From positions 1 to 52,984 of the forward strand of contig CAMCMT010000016.1 in assembly GCA_945875915.1 (NCBI GenBank): 52,984 bases of DNA. The letters run 5' to 3'. Below are positions 6,245 through 52,984 of this stretch, piece by piece. This DNA is from Synechococcus sp. UW140. Its GTDB lineage: Bacteria; Cyanobacteriota; Cyanobacteriia; PCC-6307; Cyanobiaceae. A program made the translations under genes and the position numbers. Under the pieces are notes generated by a model that did no database searches, had not been told where the DNA came from, and saw only the letters and a program-made list of their open reading frames with translations. The stretch's first letter is position 1; every line of letters starts with the position of its first letter.

Positions 6245-6496
6245 TCAGCTGGCGCTGGATGGGGACAGGATTTCAGCCACGGCCCAACGTTTGGTGCGGC
6301 TGAGGGGACGGGTTTCGGTAATGCGAACCCGGTCACCCACGCGGCAGGAATTCTCCTCGTCGTGGGCTTTGTAGCGGGTGGTGCGGCTGACGGTCTTTTG
6401 ATAGATGGGATGGGGGAAGCGGTTTTCGACCGCCACCACCACCGTTTTTTCCATCTTGTCGCTGACGACGGTGCCGACCCTTTCCTTGAGTGCCAT
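6245..6496 (-). CDS. rpsQ: 30S ribosomal protein S17
   Basis: An 83-residue small-subunit protein. It begins [21 protein letters not shown] and carries [19 protein letters not shown], the S17 signature region. Normal length; 17 bases downstream of rpmC. Confidence 0.97.
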
Positions 6497-43714: not shown

Positions 43715-44971
43715 TCATCCCTGCCCCCAGGCCAGCAGCCGTTTCTCCACTAGGGCGGCCAGGGCCTCGCTACCGCCGGGTTGTCCCATCCGCTGCCGGC
43801 CGATGGCCCCCAGCCGCAGGCGGCCTTCGGGGTCTCCCAGGAGCTGCTGCAACCTCTCTGCCAGTTCCTCTTGGCTGTGACAAACCGCCACGGCCCCGCC
43901 CAGCAGCCGGCTCTGGCGTTGGGCAAAGCCGAGCTTGAATTGGGGGCCAGGCCCTGGCAGGGACAGGGCCGCAATCCCCAGGCCCACGAGCTGTTCGGTG
44001 GCGGTACCGGCCGTGGCCAGCCCCAGCTCGCCCCAGCTCGCCCAGGGGGTGAAGCGCCCCGGTCCGAGCAGCAACAGCAGGCTCCGCCGCCGCCAGGCCG
44101 CCTCGGCCCCACTGCCTGCAGGGGGCTCAGCGGGCTCGAAGTCCCGCCACCGCAGGATCGGGGCCAGGTCCTGGGGGACCGGCCGGGTGCCGCCTGGGGC
44201 GAGCAGCACCATGGGAGTGTCGTCCCTGCGTCCATCGCTCCAGGCCAGCAGGGCATCCAGCAGCCGGGCGAAGTTGGCCCGGGCCTCCGGCATGCGGCTA
44301 CCTGAAAGCAGCACCAGCCGGCGATAGCCCCCGAGGCTGGCGGGTAGGGGAGCCCCCACCAGGCCATCCAGCATTGGATTGCCGGGGGCAAGCGCCGCCA
44401 CGCCATGGCGCGCCAAGCCCCGGGCCGTGAGCGGATCACGCAGGGCTACCAGCCGGCAGCGGGGCCGCCCCATCAGGGCCCATTCCCAGGGGTCCCATTC
44501 GCTGCCCTTGAGCCGGTGGTAGGCATCGGCGGGCCAGGCCTGGCCGGGGCCGCTGCGCCAGGTGTAGTCGCTTTTGGGGGTGCCGATGAAGCCATAGGGC
44601 GCCCCACTGGCCCAGGCCAGCAGCAACGGCAGGAGGTCCCCCACGGCCAGTACGGCACCGCCCTGGCGCCCCCAGCGCCGCACCAGCCGCCATTGGCGCC
44701 AGCTCAACAGGGGCAGGCCGGCGGCCAGATCCCTTAGCAGTCCCCTCAGGCTCTGGTTGCTGAAACCGCCACTGGGCAGGGCCTGGCGGGGTCCAACCCG
44801 TTGCAGCCAGCCCTCAGCTTCGGCCGCGGCAAAGGCACTGCCTTCCCCCACCAGGGGCAGCACGGCCACGGCCAGCCCGGGCTGGTTGACCCGCAGGGCC
44901 TGGAGCACCCGCAGGGCAATCAGATCTTCCCCATGGCCATTACTGAGAACCAGTAGCCTGGAGGCCATCAC
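43715..44971 (-). CDS. Lipid-A-disaccharide synthase-related protein (TIGR03492-like)
   Basis: A 418-residue protein with a GT-B-like layout: N-terminal LLVLSNGHGEDLIALRVLQAL, a C-terminal GELGLATAGTATEQLVGLGIAAL and PGPGPQFKLGFAQRQSRLLGG, resembling LpxB-type glycosyltransferases. It belongs to a cyanobacterial/Deinococcus group whose substrate is unknown. ATG at the second codon (44968) is equally possible. It is divergent from tRNA-Cys by about 40 bases. Confidence 0.8.
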   Translation of the reverse strand: MMASRLLVLSNGHGEDLIALRVLQALRVNQPGLAVAVLPLVGEGSAFAAAEAEGWLQRVGPRQALPSGGFSNQSLRGLLRDLAAGLPLLSWRQWRLVRRWGRQGGAVLAVGDLLPLLLAWASGAPYGFIGTPKSDYTWRSGPGQAWPADAYHRLKGSEWDPWEWALMGRPRCRLVALRDPLTARGLARHGVAALAPGNPMLDGLVGAPLPASLGGYRRLVLLSGSRMPEARANFARLLDALLAWSDGRRDDTPMVLLAPGGTRPVPQDLAPILRWRDFEPAEPPAGSGAEAAWRRRSLLLLLGPGRFTPWASWGELGLATAGTATEQLVGLGIAALSLPGPGPQFKLGFAQRQSRLLGGAVAVCHSQEELAERLQQLLGDPEGRLRLGAIGRQRMGQPGGSEALAALVEKRLLAWGQG

Positions 44972-45010
44972 ACGCTGATACGATCGCTACCTGGGAGTTT
45001 GCTCCCAGAT

Positions 45011-45081
45011 GGCGGCATGGCCAAGTGGTAAGGCAGAGGATTGCAAATCCTTTACCCCCAGTTCGAATCTGGGTGCCGCCT
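45011..45081 (+). tRNA. tRNA-Cys (anticodon GCA)
   Basis: A 71-nt cloverleaf: acceptor GGCGGCA/TGCCGCC fully paired, D region AAGTGGTAAGGC, anticodon loop TTGCAAA with GCA, and T arm CCCAGTTCGAATCTGGG. A T-run follows directly. The character of the DNA changes just beyond it, so it may mark the edge of an integrated region. Confidence 0.95.
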
Positions 45082-45288
45082 TTTTGTCTCTAAGCGCAAA
45101 AAACAGTGTATCCCGTTCAGGATGCCTGTTTTTGAGCGCATGGCGCTAGGAGTCAAGCTTTATCGTGATCTTGATCTTGTTGGCAAGTCCGTTGACAAGT
45201 TTTTCCGCTGAGGCTCCTTCCCCCTATCCCAGGTGACCCAGTATACCAATTTTTACAGCATGATGACTAATGCCACCTACTGGCAGGC
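45082..45288. other. Transition zone after tRNA-Cys
   Basis: About 200 bases of lower-GC DNA with no supported gene. A consensus TTGACA at 45192-45197 has no matching -10 at the right distance. The first micro-protein gene starts at the right end, so a promoter for the island operon is likely here, but I cannot place it. Confidence 0.4.
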
Positions 45289-45480
45289 ATGAACCATCCA
45301 GAGTTGCTCCTGGTTCCGTGGACGGTCTTTGCGGTTGCCCTTGCCCTCAGGGTCTGGCAGTTCGGCAGTGCCCTGAAACGGCACCTAATCGCTGCAACCC
45401 CCAGTACCGAACAGTTCAGGCAGATCTTGGAGAGAAGCTGGGAGCAAGAGGCGCAAGAGGAGGCGAAATGGAAAACCTGA
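45289..45480 (+). CDS. Single-TM micro-protein A upstream of type I R-M
   Basis: A 63-residue protein: short N terminus, one transmembrane helix at about residues 6-22 (LLVPWTVFAVALALRVW), a basic junction ALKRH, and a charged helix with EQFRQILERSWEQEAQ. It is similar to the next protein: the shared pattern is L-x-V-W-x2-G-S ... F-R-x2-L-E-R-x-W-x2-E in the same register (13 identities over 35 ungapped positions by eye). The two genes overlap by 13 bases. Function unknown; I do not recognise the family. Confidence 0.65.
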   Translation: MNHPELLLVPWTVFAVALALRVWQFGSALKRHLIAATPSTEQFRQILERSWEQEAQEEAKWKT

Positions 45481-45638
45481 ACTGGGGATACATCCAACTG
45501 GGTCTGGTTGCCCTTGCCTTTGGCGGTCTGCAGGTCTGGTGGATCGGCAGCGTTTTTTGGAAAAGGAAACTGGCAAGACCCCTGAACGAGGGTGAGTTCC
45601 GTAAGGCGCTGGAGCGGATTTGGACGAGTGAGAAATGA
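45468..45638 (+). CDS. Single-TM micro-protein B, paralogue of A
   Basis: A 56-residue protein: MENLNWGYIQLG, a transmembrane helix at about 9-30, then basic WKRKLAR and a charged helix with EFRKALERIWTSEK. Same layout and motifs as micro-protein A. The start ATG at 45468 lies inside the end of gene A and is preceded by a purine-rich GAGGAGGCG sequence, a good ribosome-binding site. It precedes hsdM by 113 bases. Function unknown; a paired membrane accessory or regulator of the R-M locus is only a hypothesis. Confidence 0.65.
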   Translation: MENLNWGYIQLGLVALAFGGLQVWWIGSVFWKRKLARPLNEGEFRKALERIWTSEK

Positions 45639-45669
45639 AGGGGTAAAAGTCTATTGAATGCAGTTCTAA

Positions 45670-45701
45670 GTTATGCTCAAAATGATGCACAAACGCATAA
45701 C
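45670..45701. promoter_or_regulatory. Inverted repeat upstream of hsdM
   Basis: GTTATGC (45670-45676) and GCATAAC (45695-45701) form a perfect 7-bp inverted repeat separated by 18 bases, within the 113-base gap before hsdM. The spacing would place the arms a little over two helical turns apart, as in dimeric repressor operators. Could be chance. Confidence 0.35.
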
Positions 45702-45751
45702 GAATAAAATGAACTCCCAGGGGAGATAATGGGAGCAAGCGACCTGACCTA

Positions 45752-47482
45752 GTGACCGACTCAGCGACCTTCACCACGCCCGAAGCAGACGACGATGAGA
45801 CGGGTGAAGACCTGGGCGGACTGGATGACCTGCTGGCATCGCTGAGGTCAGACGAGGAACCAGCACCCAAGCGAGGTCGAGGCAGGGCGAAGAAAGAAGC
45901 ACCCGCCAAGGATTTCAAGGCAGTGCTCTGGGCAACTGCCGACAAACTTCGTGCCCAGATGGATGCGGCGGAATACAAGCATCTGGTTCTGGGTCTGATC
46001 TTCCTCAAATACATCTCAGACACCTTTGCCGCCCAACAAGGCAAGGTGCTGCTGATGGTCAGCAACCCTGACTCTGACAACTATGTGGGCGATGACCCTG
46101 CCGATCACCAGGCAGCACTGGAAGACCGTGACTACTACACCCAGGAGAACGTGTTCTGGGTGCCTGCTGATGCTCGCTGGGAGTCGCTACGGGCACGGGC
46201 AAAGCAACCTGATATTGGTCAACTGATCGATAAGGCCCTGGTTGCCATCGAGAACGAGAACCTGCCCTTGAGGGGCAAGTTGGATAAGCGGTTTGGTGCT
46301 GCCCAACTGGAACCTGGGCGAATGGGTGAACTGGTGGATCTGATCTCCACCATTGGATTTGCCGACGACCAGCGTTCAGGTGATGTGCTGGGTGAGGTCT
46401 ACGAATACTTCCTCGGTCAGTTCGCCAGCGCAGAGGGCAAGAAGGGCGGTCAGTTCTATACGCCTGCTCACGTCGTCAAAATGCTCGTTGCTGTGCTGGC
46501 ACCCCATAAGGGTCGGATCTATGACCCCTGCTGTGGTTCAGGAGGAATGTTCGTTCAAAGCGTCAAGTTTGTTGAAAGTCATGGATGGCGTGTAAATAAA
46601 CCAGGTAGACGTGACGACATCTCGATCTACGGGCAGGAGAGCAACCCCACGACGTGGAAGTTGGCGGCAATGAATCTGGCGATCCGTGGGTTCGCTGCGG
46701 ATCTGGGTCAGGAACCTGCTGACACCTTTGCTAGAGATCAGTTCCCTGACAAGAAGTTTGACTACATACTTGCCAATCCACCGTTCAACATTTCGGATTG
46801 GGGTGGGGAGAAATACGAGAGCGATCCTCGCTGGGTGTATGGCAGGCCACCTGTAGGCAATGCGAACTATGCGTGGTTACAACATATGCTCTGGAAACTA
46901 CGCCCTGGTGGTGAGGCAGGCGTAGTGCTGGCAAACGGATCAATGAGTTCCAACCAAAGTGGTGAGGGGCAGATTCGTGAAGCGATGGTTCGTGGTGATG
47001 TGGTTGAGGTGATGGTGGCACTGCCTGGGCAACTGTTCCTCAACACCGCCATACCTGTTTGCCTGTGGTTCTTGACGAATGACAAGACCCAGCGTGGTCG
47101 TGATCGCCGTGAAGAAACGCTGTTTATTGATGCCCGTCAGATGGGCACGATGAAGACAAGGGTTGAGCGGGTGCTGACTGATGAGGATATTGCCAAGATT
47201 GGAGACACCGTTCACGCCTGGCGTGGTGATGGTGAGGTGTCTGATGCTTATGAGGATGTCGCTGGATTCTGCTACAACGCCAAGTTAGGGGAGATCGAGA
47301 AGAATGGTTTTGTGCTCACGCCTGGGCGCTATGTGGGAGCAGCAGATATTGAAGATGATGGCGAAGGATTTGAGGAGAAGATGAAGCGCCTCACTGGGTT
47401 GCTCAAGCAGCAGCAGGAAGAAGGGGCAAGGTTGGATCAGCAGATTTCTGAGAATCTGAGGAGGTTGGGATATGAGTTCTGA
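45752..47482 (+). CDS. hsdM: Type I restriction-modification DNA methyltransferase subunit HsdM
   Basis: A 576-residue N6-adenine methyltransferase subunit. The HsdM N-terminal helical domain spans about 50-190 (EYKHLVLGLIFLKYISDTFA). The SAM-binding motif I DPCCGSGGM is near residue 257 and catalytic NPPF near 341. The first 50 residues form an acidic then basic (KRGRGRAKK) tail not seen in all homologues. The start is GTG at 45752; stop codons block an earlier ATG nearby. It overlaps hsdS by 11 bases. GC and codon use are lower than in the core genes. Confidence 0.95.
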   Translation: MTDSATFTTPEADDDETGEDLGGLDDLLASLRSDEEPAPKRGRGRAKKEAPAKDFKAVLWATADKLRAQMDAAEYKHLVLGLIFLKYISDTFAAQQGKVLLMVSNPDSDNYVGDDPADHQAALEDRDYYTQENVFWVPADARWESLRARAKQPDIGQLIDKALVAIENENLPLRGKLDKRFGAAQLEPGRMGELVDLISTIGFADDQRSGDVLGEVYEYFLGQFASAEGKKGGQFYTPAHVVKMLVAVLAPHKGRIYDPCCGSGGMFVQSVKFVESHGWRVNKPGRRDDISIYGQESNPTTWKLAAMNLAIRGFAADLGQEPADTFARDQFPDKKFDYILANPPFNISDWGGEKYESDPRWVYGRPPVGNANYAWLQHMLWKLRPGGEAGVVLANGSMSSNQSGEGQIREAMVRGDVVEVMVALPGQLFLNTAIPVCLWFLTNDKTQRGRDRREETLFIDARQMGTMKTRVERVLTDEDIAKIGDTVHAWRGDGEVSDAYEDVAGFCYNAKLGEIEKNGFVLTPGRYVGAADIEDDGEGFEEKMKRLTGLLKQQQEEGARLDQQISENLRRLGYEF

Positions 47483-48695
47483 ATGGGTTCGGTGTCGCCT
47501 GGGTGATGTCATAAACCTCAAAAGAGGTTATGACCTTCCAAAACAATCACGAGAACAAGGCACTGTGCCTATTGTCTCATCATCTGGAGTATCCGATTAT
47601 CACAATGTGGCGATGGCAAAGGCGCCAGGCGTCGTCACGGGTCGATATGGAACCATAGGCAATGTTTACTATGTGAAAGAGGATTACTTCCCGCTAAATA
47701 CAACCCTGTATGTCAAGGATTTCAAGGGCAATGATCCTGGGTTTATCTCCTATCATCTGAGAACTATTGACTTCAACAGTTGCTCAGACAAGGCGGCGGT
47801 TCCAGGTGTAAACAGAAATCATCTCCACGAACTTGAAACGGCAATACCCCCCATAGCAGAACAAAAAGCAATCGCTCATATCCTCGGCACCCTTGACGAC
47901 AAGATCGAACTGAACCGCAAGACCAAAGAAACCTTAGAGGCGATGGCAAAGGCGCTCTTCAAGTCGTGGTTTGTGGATTTCGATCCAGTCAGAGCGAAGA
48001 CAGAAGGTCGCCCAACTGGATTGCCAGCAGAGATCAGCGACCTGTTCCCAGATTCATTTGAGGATTCGGAACTCGGCGAGATTCCGAGTGGGTGGAGAGA
48101 TGGTGAGATTCAAGACATTGCCGAACTGAATCCTGAAACTTGGGGCAGCAGAAACAAACCTCTTAGCGTTAGATACCTAGACCTATCCAACGTAAAGCAC
48201 GGGAAAATAGATAGCATTGAGGAGTATCAATGGGAAGATGCTCCAAGCAGGGCACGGCGGATCCTGAAAACTGGCGACACTGTTGTGGGAACAGTCAGAC
48301 CTGGGAATGGATCATATTGTCTCATTGGAGAAGATGGCATCACTGGAAGCACGGGTTTTGCCGTGTTGCGCCCGAAGAACAAGAACGACAGTGCTTTCGT
48401 TTATTTGGGTTCTTGCTCAAAAGAAAATATTGATCGCCTGGCGCATTTGGCAGATGGTGGAGCGTATCCAGCAGTGAGACCTGAGTTAGTAGCGCAAACT
48501 CCTATCATTATTGCCCCCAGGGATTTGCTGGATTGCTTTTCAAGAAGTGTTTCGCCGCTCTTTGCCGCTGCGGAAGAAAGGAAACAGTCGTCAAAACTCC
48601 TTTGCCAAGCAAGGGATGCCCTCCTCCCCAAACTCATCTCAGGTGAAATCCGAATCCCTGATGCCGAGAAGATGCTTGAGGGGGTCGTGCTATGA
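47472..48695 (+). CDS. hsdS: Type I restriction-modification specificity subunit HsdS
   Basis: A 407-residue protein with two target-recognition domains (about 1-130 and 205-350), each followed by a conserved helical spacer: AEQKAIAHILGTLDDKIELNR after the first and RKQSSKLLCQARDALLPKLISGEIR after the second. The recognition sequence cannot be predicted. It is intact and overlaps hsdM (11 bases) and the AlbA_2 gene (4 bases). Confidence 0.94.
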   Translation: MSSEWVRCRLGDVINLKRGYDLPKQSREQGTVPIVSSSGVSDYHNVAMAKAPGVVTGRYGTIGNVYYVKEDYFPLNTTLYVKDFKGNDPGFISYHLRTIDFNSCSDKAAVPGVNRNHLHELETAIPPIAEQKAIAHILGTLDDKIELNRKTKETLEAMAKALFKSWFVDFDPVRAKTEGRPTGLPAEISDLFPDSFEDSELGEIPSGWRDGEIQDIAELNPETWGSRNKPLSVRYLDLSNVKHGKIDSIEEYQWEDAPSRARRILKTGDTVVGTVRPGNGSYCLIGEDGITGSTGFAVLRPKNKNDSAFVYLGSCSKENIDRLAHLADGGAYPAVRPELVAQTPIIIAPRDLLDCFSRSVSPLFAAAEERKQSSKLLCQARDALLPKLISGEIRIPDAEKMLEGVVL

Positions 48696-50101
48696 GGACG
48701 TCTCCGCAGCAGATCGATCTCTGGCGGCAAGCGGCCTCTGAGCATCAGAGGCTGGAATTCAAGGAAGCGAAGCAGCAGTTTGATACCCGCAAGCTACGCG
48801 AATACTGCGTCGCCTTGGCCAATGAGGGTGGCGGTGTGCTTCTTCTTGGGATAGCGGATCAACCTCCACGCCAGGTTGTCAGCACTCAGGCCTTCCCAGA
48901 CACGGTTGCGGCAGCAGAACAACTGTTCAGAGCTGTCGGATTTAGAGTGGACATTGAAGATGTTGCCCATCCCGATGGGCGTGTACTCGTCTTTCATATT
49001 CCATCGCGACCCCGCGGAACGGCCTACAACCTTGAAGGCAAGTACCTGATGCGTGCAGGTGAAGCATTAGTGCCGATGAGCGAAGACCAGTTGAGGCGCA
49101 TTTTCTCTGAAGGTCAACCCGATTGGCTCGAGGAGCCTTCCCGTCGTGGCCTCGATGGTCAGGAGGTCGTAGAGCTGCTCGATACACAGACTTTTTTTGA
49201 GCTTCTGCGGTTGCCCTATCCCACAAATCGAGCTGGCGTCCTTGACAGACTCATTTCAGACAAGCTTGTGGATGACATTGGCGGCAGCTACACCATCCGT
49301 CGACTGGGAGCCCTGTTGTTAGCTCGACGACTGAGTGATTTCCCAGATCTATCACGCAAAGCCGCGCGCATCGTCGCCTACTCAGGCTCATCCAAATTGC
49401 AGACAAAGCTAGATCATGTCTTCAACCGCGGATATGCAGCGGGATTTCAAGAGCTTGTACAATTTGTTTACTCACAACTACCGCAGAACGAAGTCATTGA
49501 GCACGCCTTGCGCAAAGAGGTGAAGCTTGTTCCTGATGTTGTGATTCGCGAGCTTTTGGCCAATGCCTTGATTCATCAAGACTTCGCGGTGGCCGGGGCT
49601 TCGGTGATGATTGACATCTTCGCTAATCGCGTTGAGATCTCCAATCCGGGCGAGCCCTTGGTGCCTGTGGAGCGCTTCATCGATGGCTATCAATCTCGCA
49701 ATGAACACCTTGCTGATCTGATGCGACGCTTCGGTATCTGCGAAGAGAAGAGCAGCGGTATCGATCGGGTGGTTGATGCCGCTGAGGTATATCAATTGCC
49801 TGCTCCAGATTTTCACGCAGGATTCCGCCGCACGATTGTGACGATCTTCGGCCCCCTGCCATTTGATCAAATGGACCGGAACAACCGGGTTCGAGCCTGT
49901 TATCAACACTGCGCGCTCCGGTGGGTGATGGGCGAGCGGATGACCAATCAGACGCTTCGAGAGCGATTTCGGCTTGGGGAGGAGAAGGCCGCCGTGACGT
50001 CCCAGGTCATTTCAGCCACCATTGAGGCCAATCTGATTAAGCCAGACGGCAGCATCGGCGCCTCTCGCAAATTCGCCCGCTACCTCCCCTTCTGGGCATG
50101 A
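48692..50101 (+). CDS. AlbA_2 (Schlafen-type) / HATPase DNA-binding protein in the R-M operon
   Basis: A 469-residue protein. The N-terminal AlbA_2 domain (about 15-130) shows RLEFKEAKQ and CVALANEGGGVLLLGIAD. The middle/C-terminal region has a GHKL-type ATP-binding site: VVIRELLANALIHQDF (N-box) near 288-303 and IFANRVEISNPGEPL near 311-325. The last 70 residues resemble a winged helix. Genes of this family often accompany type I R-M loci; their role (regulation or extra defence) is unresolved. ATGA overlap with hsdS indicates coupled translation. Confidence 0.85.
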   Translation: MRTSPQQIDLWRQAASEHQRLEFKEAKQQFDTRKLREYCVALANEGGGVLLLGIADQPPRQVVSTQAFPDTVAAAEQLFRAVGFRVDIEDVAHPDGRVLVFHIPSRPRGTAYNLEGKYLMRAGEALVPMSEDQLRRIFSEGQPDWLEEPSRRGLDGQEVVELLDTQTFFELLRLPYPTNRAGVLDRLISDKLVDDIGGSYTIRRLGALLLARRLSDFPDLSRKAARIVAYSGSSKLQTKLDHVFNRGYAAGFQELVQFVYSQLPQNEVIEHALRKEVKLVPDVVIRELLANALIHQDFAVAGASVMIDIFANRVEISNPGEPLVPVERFIDGYQSRNEHLADLMRRFGICEEKSSGIDRVVDAAEVYQLPAPDFHAGFRRTIVTIFGPLPFDQMDRNNRVRACYQHCALRWVMGERMTNQTLRERFRLGEEKAAVTSQVISATIEANLIKPDGSIGASRKFARYLPFWA

Positions 50102-50239: not shown

Positions 50240-52780
50240 ATGGCCCTGATCACCGAAGACCATCTCGAACAGCAGTGCCTGGAGTGGTTCCAGGAGCTGG
50301 GATACAGCCACGTCTTCGCACCCCAACTCGACAGCGACGGCACCTCCCCTGAACGCACCGACTTCAGGCAGGTCATCCTCACGGGTCGCCTTCGCACAGC
50401 ACTCCGCCGCCTGAACCCAGAAGTTCCAGCGAGCACCATCGAGTCAGCGGTGCTCCAACTGGCGAACCCCAACGTGCCTGGTCTGCTGGTATCAAACCGC
50501 AACTTCCACCGCTGGATGACCCAGGGTTTACCCATCACCTATCTAGATGGGAACCAGCAGGTCGGAATTCGACTCAAGGTGATCGGATTTGACGACCCTG
50601 CTTCTAACGACTGGTTGGTGGTTAACCAGTTGGCGATCCAGGGCACCAAGCACAACCGCCGCCCTGATGTGGTGGTCTACGTCAACGGTCTACCGCTGGC
50701 GGTGATCGAACTGAAGAACCCTGCCGATGAGAAGGCAGACATCTGGGCAGGGTTCAACCAACTCCAGACCTACAAGCAAGACATCCCCGACCTGTTCACA
50801 TCGAACGTGCTGCTGGTGATCAGCGATGGCATCCAGGCACGGTTGGGTTCATTGAGTGCTGATCGGGAACGGTTCCAGCGGTGGCGAACTATCGAAGGGG
50901 AGAACCACCTCGATCCGCTGGGTAATCACCGTGACTTAGAGACCCTGGTGAGGGGCATCTTCGACAAGGGGCGACTGCTGGAGTTCGTTCGCTCCTTTTG
51001 CCTGTTTGAAGAAGACGGGCAGATCATCAAAAAGATCGCTGCCTACCACCAGTTCCACGCCGTCAGAGCAGCAGTGGAAAGCGTGGTCAAAGCAAGCAGA
51101 CCCGATGGCGACAAGAAAGGTGGCGTGGTCTGGCACACCCAAGGTGCTGGCAAGAGCATTGAGATGGCGTGTCTGGCGGGCAAGTTGCTCACTGATCCAC
51201 GCCTGGAGAACCCCACCCTGGTGATGGTCACCGACCGCCAAGACCTGGATGGTCAACTGTTTGGGGTGTTCGCTGGAGCAGGCGATCTGCTGGGTGAATC
51301 CCCCAAGCAGGCAGACAGTCGCCAAGAACTGAGAGAACTGTTGGGCAACAGGCCTAGTGGCGGCATCATCTTCACCACCATTCAGAAGTTCGCTACTGAA
51401 GATGGAGAAGACAAGTTCCCTGCCCTGAGCGAGCGCCACAACGTCGTGGTGATCTGCGATGAAGCACACCGCACCCAATACGGGTTCAAGGGTCGCTTCG
51501 ACACCAAGACAGGGGAGATCAAATACGGGTTGGCAAAGGCACTCAGAGATGCCCTGCCCCAAGCAACCTTCCTTGCCTTCACAGGAACGCCCATCTCCCA
51601 AGACGACCGTGACACCCAGGCGGTGTTTGGTCACTATGTCTCCGTCTACGACATTCAGCAGGCAGTGGAAGACGGTGCCACGGTGCCGATCTACTACGAA
51701 TCCCGCCTGGCAAAACTGGCGCTCAAGGAACCACTGCTGCCCCAGATCGATGCGGCGGTGGATGCCCTGTTCGCCGATGAAGCCGAAGGCTTCCCCGAAG
51801 GGATAGATGATAGTCCTGCTGCTGAACGGGCAAAGAGCAGGTGGGCAGCACTGGAAGCACTTGTGGGCGCTGAACCACGCCTAAAGCAGGTGGCAGCAGA
51901 TTTGATTGCCCACTTTGAGCAACGCTCACGCACCCAACCAGGTAAGGCGATGGTGGTAGCGATGAGCAGGGATATCTGTGCCCGCCTCTATGCCGCCATC
52001 GTTGCTCTGAGACCTGACTGGCACGATGACGACCCCAAAAAAGGTGCCATCAAGGTGGTGATGACGGCAGCGGCATCGGATGAGCAATATCTCCAACCGC
52101 ACCACACCACCAAGCAGCAGAAGAAGGATCTCGAGAGAAGGTTCAAGGATCCTGCCGACCCGCTCAAAATTGTGCTGGTGCGGGATATGTGGTTAACGGG
52201 GTTTGATGCACCCTGTCTGGCGACGATGTATGTGGATAAACCGATGAAGGGGGCGAACCTGGCGCAGGCGATTGCCCGTGTGAACAGGGTTTTCAAAGAC
52301 AAACCAGGCGGTCTGGTGGTCGATTACATCGGCATCGCCCCCCAACTCAAGGAAGCACTATCGACCTACACCGCATCGAAGGGCAAAGGACAAATCAAAC
52401 TGGATGTTGATCAGGCGCTACGGATCCTCAAAGAGAAACTCCAGGTTGCCCGTGACCTGCTCCACCCCATCGACTGGAGTGGATTCACCGATCCCAAGAC
52501 AGCGATGGCACTGCTGCCCAACTGCCTGGATCACATATTGACATTGCCAGATGGTAAGCAGCGCTATTGCGATACCGTGCTGGCAATGACCAAAGCATTT
52601 GCCCTGTGCGGAACGCTTGATCAAGCGCTGGTACTAGATCCCGAGGTCACCTTCCTTCAAGCGATCCGAGCACCACTAATCAAAGGTGATGGAGACGGAG
52701 GAGATGGTCGTGCCCCCAAGAATGTTGATTTTGAGTTGCGCCAACTAATGGGCACCTCGAAAAATCAACAAGGCACTTGA
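50240..52780 (+). CDS. hsdR: Type I restriction enzyme HsdR, C-terminally truncated by an IS
   Basis: The ATP-dependent translocase/nuclease subunit. The PD-(D/E)xK nuclease core is visible at [22 protein letters not shown] (here residues about 140-160), Walker A HTQGAGKS near 300, DEAHR near 410 and motif VI-like [14 protein letters not shown]. The family is about 1000 residues; this one stops at 846. Homology ends at FELRQL (residue about 836), and the last ten residues come from IS DNA. The missing C-terminal domain contacts the methyltransferase core, so the product is probably not functional. Confidence 0.9.
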
Positions 52781-52984
52781 TTCCGGCGTGATCTCATTTA
52801 TGATTGGTTGAGCAATTTTAATGCCAACAGTGGGCCAGAGAGGCTTCTGGGACGAACAGCAAAGAGTCACAAAGCTCCAGGACAAAAAGCCGGTTCTAAA
52901 GAGCCTTGCTGATTCAATCCCATGGGAATCATTCCGCCCACTGCTTGACAAGGGCTATGAGCATGAGCGCAAGAGCAATGCAGG
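52749..52984 (+). mobile_element. Left end of an IS5-family insertion sequence (runs off the window)
   Basis: The element begins at about 52749, directly after CTAA (52745-52748), which matches the YTAR target of IS5-subgroup elements. Its first bases TGGGCACCTCGAAAAATC are a plausible terminal inverted repeat. A transposase reading frame starts 72 bases in. The right end and the second target copy are outside the window. Confidence 0.75.
52821..52984 (+). CDS. IS5-family transposase, N-terminal part
   Basis: ATG at 52821 opens a frame that stays open to the window end (54 codons). The segment RGFWDEQQRVTKLQDKKPVL and SIPWESFRPLLDKGYEHERK is the typical N terminus of IS5/IS1182-like DDE transposases common in cyanobacteria. 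The catalytic DDE region lies beyond the window. Confidence 0.85.
   Translation, partial: MPTVGQRGFWDEQQRVTKLQDKKPVLKSLADSIPWESFRPLLDKGYEHERKSNA

Follow-up and report, generated by a model that had tools for sequence, protein, structure and literature searches.

Genes and features of the locus

The window is the whole stretch of 52,984 nucleotides that we analysed, from a Synechococcus genome (G000) of the family Cyanobiaceae. Towards its right end two overlapping micro-protein genes, P1 and P2, lie between a tRNA gene and a type I restriction-modification (R-M) operon, and the following features were annotated there:

43715-44971, minus strand: c3, a conserved neighbour gene (418 aa) marking 'spot A', syntenic with tRNA-Cys and family copies elsewhere
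45011-45081, plus strand: tRNA-Cys (GCA), bounding the variable spot on its left (ARAGORN; Rfam RF00005)
45289-45480, plus strand: P1 micro-protein gene, 63 aa, one transmembrane (TM) helix, P1 subfamily
45457-45463, plus strand: GAGGAGG, lying within P1 just 5' of the P2 ATG and resembling a Shine-Dalgarno sequence for P2 (read from the sequence)
45468-45638, plus strand: gene for the 56-aa micro-protein P2 with its single TM helix (P2 subfamily), sharing 13 bases with P1
45620-45630: synteny breakpoint against the same-genus genome G285, with ~92% identity up to 45627 and unrelated DNA beyond
45680-45777, plus strand: conserved hsdM head (upstream leader and N-terminal TDSATFTTPEA codons), common to divergent hsdM genes
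45752-47482, plus strand: hsdM, type I N6 methylase (PF02384, E=3.5e-102)
47472-48695, plus strand: hsdS (PF01420)
48692-50101, plus strand: SLFN/AlbA_2 and HATPase_c_4 protein (PF04326, PF13749)
50240-52780, plus strand: hsdR, 846 aa, truncated (by its match to a 1063-aa relative)
52765-52984, plus strand: start of a multi-copy, transposon-like repeated element, left end at or before 52765

The pair does head a type I R-M locus, as an earlier note on this DNA had claimed, with hsdM, hsdS, the SLFN/AlbA_2 gene and hsdR all lying after P2. HsdR matches its 1063-aa relative (L171) at 91% over residues 1-840, where the match stops, and the repeated element that begins at ~52765 is present in nine copies in the window's genome; its short open frame gave no Pfam match. 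The hsdR gene was probably cut by an inserted mobile element. Because hsdR is truncated by this element, the R-M locus is probably broken and restriction probably non-functional. The conserved head of hsdM, comprising ~85 bases of upstream DNA and the TDSATFTTPEA codons, is shared by the window, L162, L163, L168, L169, L171, L175, L176 and L178, in genes that are otherwise ~35-40% to 95% identical. This suggests that the R-M genes carry their own expression signals, independent of P1 and P2.

P1 and P2 are paralogous genes under purifying selection

The earlier note had described two small genes of 63 and 56 residues with a 13-base overlap and a common layout, and both the frames and the layout were borne out. 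In each protein a basic junction follows the single hydrophobic stretch and leads into a charged C-terminal helix with the motif F-R-x2-L-E-R-x-W (FRQILERSW and FRKALERIW). AlphaFold models agree with this layout, giving a long helix and a C-terminal helix for P1 (H8-34 and H40-62, pLDDT 73) and for P2 (H4-35 and H41-55, pLDDT 78). The proposed paralogy is also well founded: BLASTP aligned P1 and P2 with 17 of 42 positions identical (E=1e-6), none of 5000 segment-wise shuffles matched their similarity score, and profile-profile comparison gave a probability of 97.8% (E=9e-13). Within the genus dN/dS was ~0.11-0.23 for P2 and ~0.26-0.41 for P1. Purifying selection thus acts on both, and similarity beyond chance, the common layout and dN/dS below 0.5 together indicate that P1 and P2 are real genes. 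In family alignments the C-terminal helix is the best-conserved region.

P1 and P2 form two old subfamilies of a Cyanobiaceae-specific family

We searched 299 genomes of the order, most of them drafts; family positions were taken from two single-sequence searches, among the matches listed, and locus counts are therefore approximate. Relatives of P1 occurred in at least 93 of the genomes and relatives of P2 in at least 109, frequently in several copies, which amounts to homologues in some 100 genomes. Iterated profiles started from either protein retrieved essentially one set of sequences. In a sample of the whole class, convincing scores were confined to Cyanobiaceae; no match from other lineages had an E value better than 3e-5, and several such matches fell within long open frames. 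The named relatives belong to Cyanobium and Synechococcus, marine and freshwater. Neither protein had a significant relative in Pfam, NCBIfam, PHROGs or the PDB. As the phages, plasmids and viral contigs searched contained no P1 or P2 relative, a phage or plasmid origin was dropped. By these sequence comparisons, P1 and P2 belong to one uncharacterised, Cyanobiaceae-specific family that is absent from the family libraries tested.

In a tree built from 100 copies, P1-type and P2-type proteins were separated by a branch with 100/100 support. The two lie on opposite sides of this branch, which places the duplication far back rather than at this locus. The earlier suggestion of a tandem duplication with both products kept therefore stands as to paralogy and retention, but not as a local event.

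Homologues do recur as pairs, a point that the earlier note had proposed to check. P1 and P2 overlap by 1, 4 or 13 bases in the ten loci measured (the window, L062, L063, L068, L079, L080, L093, L094, L096 and L101) and are adjacent in L078, L089 and L090. Loci with only P1 or only P2 are, however, common in the family, which makes an obligate heterodimer of the two doubtful.

Restriction-modification genes are frequent neighbours of the family

Position alone would make P1 and P2 candidates for an accessory subunit, a regulator or a membrane effector of the R-M locus, but we consider such a role very improbable. In 46 methylase-bearing genomes, with ~86 family loci (counted by hand) and 125 methylase genes, six family loci lay within ~3.5 kb of a methylase. 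Uniform placement, a null that disregards a possible island preference of both gene types, predicts 0.62 (P=5e-5); two of the six, G000 and G113, moreover share the spot at tRNA-Cys. The six are G000 (the window), G183 (L175), G030 (L176), G113 (L163), G198 (L162) and G054 (L068/L177). In all of them, and in L184, the family gene is upstream of the hsdM or N6-methylase gene and co-directional with it, and remnants of hsdM heads persist downstream of P2 in L098 and L110. Against an R-M role, ~80 of the 86 loci have no N6-methylase within ~3.5 kb, and the same-genus genomes G285 and G294 carry the P1/P2 pair and yield no hsdM or N6-methylase match. Many hsdM genes conversely have no family gene nearby (among them those in L168, L169, L170, L178 and L179), hsdM carries its own conserved head, and G198 combines an intact hsdM with broken P2 copies.

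Comparison with known R-M and defence proteins gave no Pfam match and, in PADLOC, one irrelevant Cas8g match (E=0.0099). Most family copies adjoin housekeeping genes. Neighbours elsewhere, taken from longest-ORF lists, include an AhpC/TSA protein (by Pfam) and genes that, on reading their sequences, we take to be alanine racemase-like, ilvC-like, ABC1-kinase-like and P450-like. On the hsdM-less relatives and these family-wide neighbours we rejected the pair as an R-M component. Of the adjacency to hsdM that the earlier note had proposed to tabulate, what holds is that R-M genes lie downstream of P2 above uniform chance; it fails at ~80 of 86 loci. We conclude from these comparisons that R-M is a frequent neighbour of the family and not its functional partner. 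The excess downstream of P2 is not fully explained by simple passenger status, and we read it as island insertion beside P2.

At the G198 locus (L162, 11872-13439) a DDE transposase gene splits one P2 copy, and a second copy, which sits immediately before hsdM, carries a frameshift.

The 3' end of P2 as a possible island junction

G285 is collinear with the window from c3 through tRNA-Cys, P1 and P2 at ~92% DNA identity, and the collinearity ends at the last P2 codons. This breakpoint raises the possibility that islands preferentially join at the P2 3' end, with P2 copies supplying homology and cargo landing downstream in the same orientation, a reading that we think less likely than not. It would account for the R-M neighbours, seven of seven of which lie downstream of P2 and co-directional with it, hsdM in L184 starting within ~100 bases after the P2 match. 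One small methyltransferase gene also lies directly behind P2 at two chromosomal spots (L100 and L101), with P2 on both sides in L100, and contigs end inside P2 in L104/L191, L107/L195 and L069. The case is weakened by several points. A second P2 3' repeat was not found in the window's genome, no recombinase gene was identified, and the partial P2 pieces may be ordinary decayed copies. In addition, protein conservation ends at ERIW, so BLAST alignments would stop there anyway. The idea that P2 ends in an attachment site for site-specific insertion was, for want of a second repeat in the window's genome, kept as a rival only. The junction reading is compatible with the accessory membrane-protein explanation given below.

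Family loci lay within 2 kb of a tRNA gene in 17 of 78 cases, compared with 6.6% of the remaining positions in those loci. A general tRNA-site element was rejected, since the cases near tRNAs come from few syntenic spots; c3 stands beside tRNA-Cys and family copies also in L062, L075, L090, L110, L191, L195 and L197. In L107 (G235) an exact 30-base copy of the tRNA-Cys 3' end (6320-6349) lies ~3 kb downstream of the tRNA gene itself and immediately ahead of a P2 copy, with an acyltransferase/SGNH gene between the tRNA and the copy of its end. This arrangement likely reflects a tRNA-site insertion.

c53 is the strongest recurrent partner of the family

Clustering of open reading frames near family copies revealed c53, a hydrophobic protein of 57-58 aa encoded in many loci on the opposite strand just downstream of family copies and convergent with them at several different chromosomal spots. 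In the class sample its matches were confined to Cyanobiaceae. We searched c53 in 80 genomes, where it is nearly always present once per genome; 30 of the 61 genes that entered the count had a family copy within 2 kb, where 0.19 such cases would be expected. By this measure of gene neighbourhood c53 is the strongest recurrent partner of the P1/P2 family. Decayed family pieces stand beside c53 in G294, G136, G216 and G198, which would fit an ancestral locus of P1-P2 and c53 that was later lost in places and scattered. Against a general partnership, c53 in the window's genome lies on contig C31 with no adjoining family copy.

P1 and P2 as probable membrane proteins

The best overall explanation, to which we give a probability of roughly 0.55, is that P1 and P2 are Cyanobiaceae-specific accessory single-pass membrane micro-proteins and not R-M parts. 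The positive-inside rule would place the N terminus outside, and the basic junction and conserved C-terminal helix (EFRxxLERIW) in the cytosol. The gene overlap suggests that a single message would yield both proteins through coupled translation, and their shared layout that they may pair via their TM helices; lone copies of P1 or P2 would then act as homomers. The cytosolic helices might offer a docking surface for a larger membrane complex, possibly with c53. The R-M operon would have been placed, or later replaced, immediately 3' of P2 in a hypervariable spot at tRNA-Cys. Judged from sequence, P1 and P2 are most likely a membrane-anchored heteromer outside defence, acting as a docking or regulatory subunit; a type I-like toxin or an R-M accessory is less likely. 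A fuller version, in which P1, P2 and convergent c53 make up a three-part membrane micro-protein module specific to picocyanobacteria, and R-M and other islands repeatedly land at the 3' terminus of P2, appears to us rather unlikely.

With ~60 aa, a single TM helix and a charged tail, P1 and P2 resemble membrane type I toxins of the Hok, Ldr and TisB kind. They are small single-TM hydrophobic peptides, and the resemblance in size and layout extends to the occurrence of the family in multiple and tandem copies, some decayed or disrupted by insertions (L090, L162, L097). They might thus be toxin-like peptides restrained by antisense RNA, which we regard as improbable. Rfam, which covers described RNAs, found the tRNA but no known antisense RNA antitoxin family in 44800-46000. 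Unlike such toxins, P1 and P2 form an overlapping, apparently coupled pair, their predicted cytosolic helix is the most conserved part, and many copies are kept in housekeeping contexts.

In the window P1 and P2 are adjacent to, and co-directional with, the genes for the type I R-M subunits HsdM, HsdS and HsdR. In sequence the micro-proteins resemble no R-M subunit, and the majority of family copies stand apart from R-M genes. The small membrane proteins of cyanobacteria include HLIPs and small photosystem subunits. P1 and P2 are single-pass micro-proteins like these, but they match no Pfam or NCBIfam model, and the chlorophyll-binding motif of HLIPs, ExxNGRxAMxG, is absent by eye from alignments A1, A3 and A4.

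Picocyanobacteria count among the most abundant of photosynthetic organisms. What emerges here is an accessory membrane-protein family of this group, missing from the libraries tested and, on the comparisons above, not part of the neighbouring DNA-defence locus; family-wide comparison disposes of the misleading idea that the pair is a new component of R-M. A conserved, lineage-specific membrane micro-protein pair with a recurrent third micro-protein as neighbour offers a well-defined object for knock-out and proteomic studies.

Other small proteins near family copies

Two further small proteins, both with no Pfam match, recur beside the family. A Cys/His protein (LRGQSLLFRCLETGFVTTAPAL...CEHCG...HQQ..RC) is encoded upstream of family copies in L088, L091, L092, L095, L098, L103, L110, L130 and L131. 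A 99-aa protein (FVQVPQWDNDWTKCSVSVPDTACHWYVVNPDNTFGKGF) is found downstream of P2 at different spots, in L063, L086, L094, L106, L108, L119 and L122-L124.
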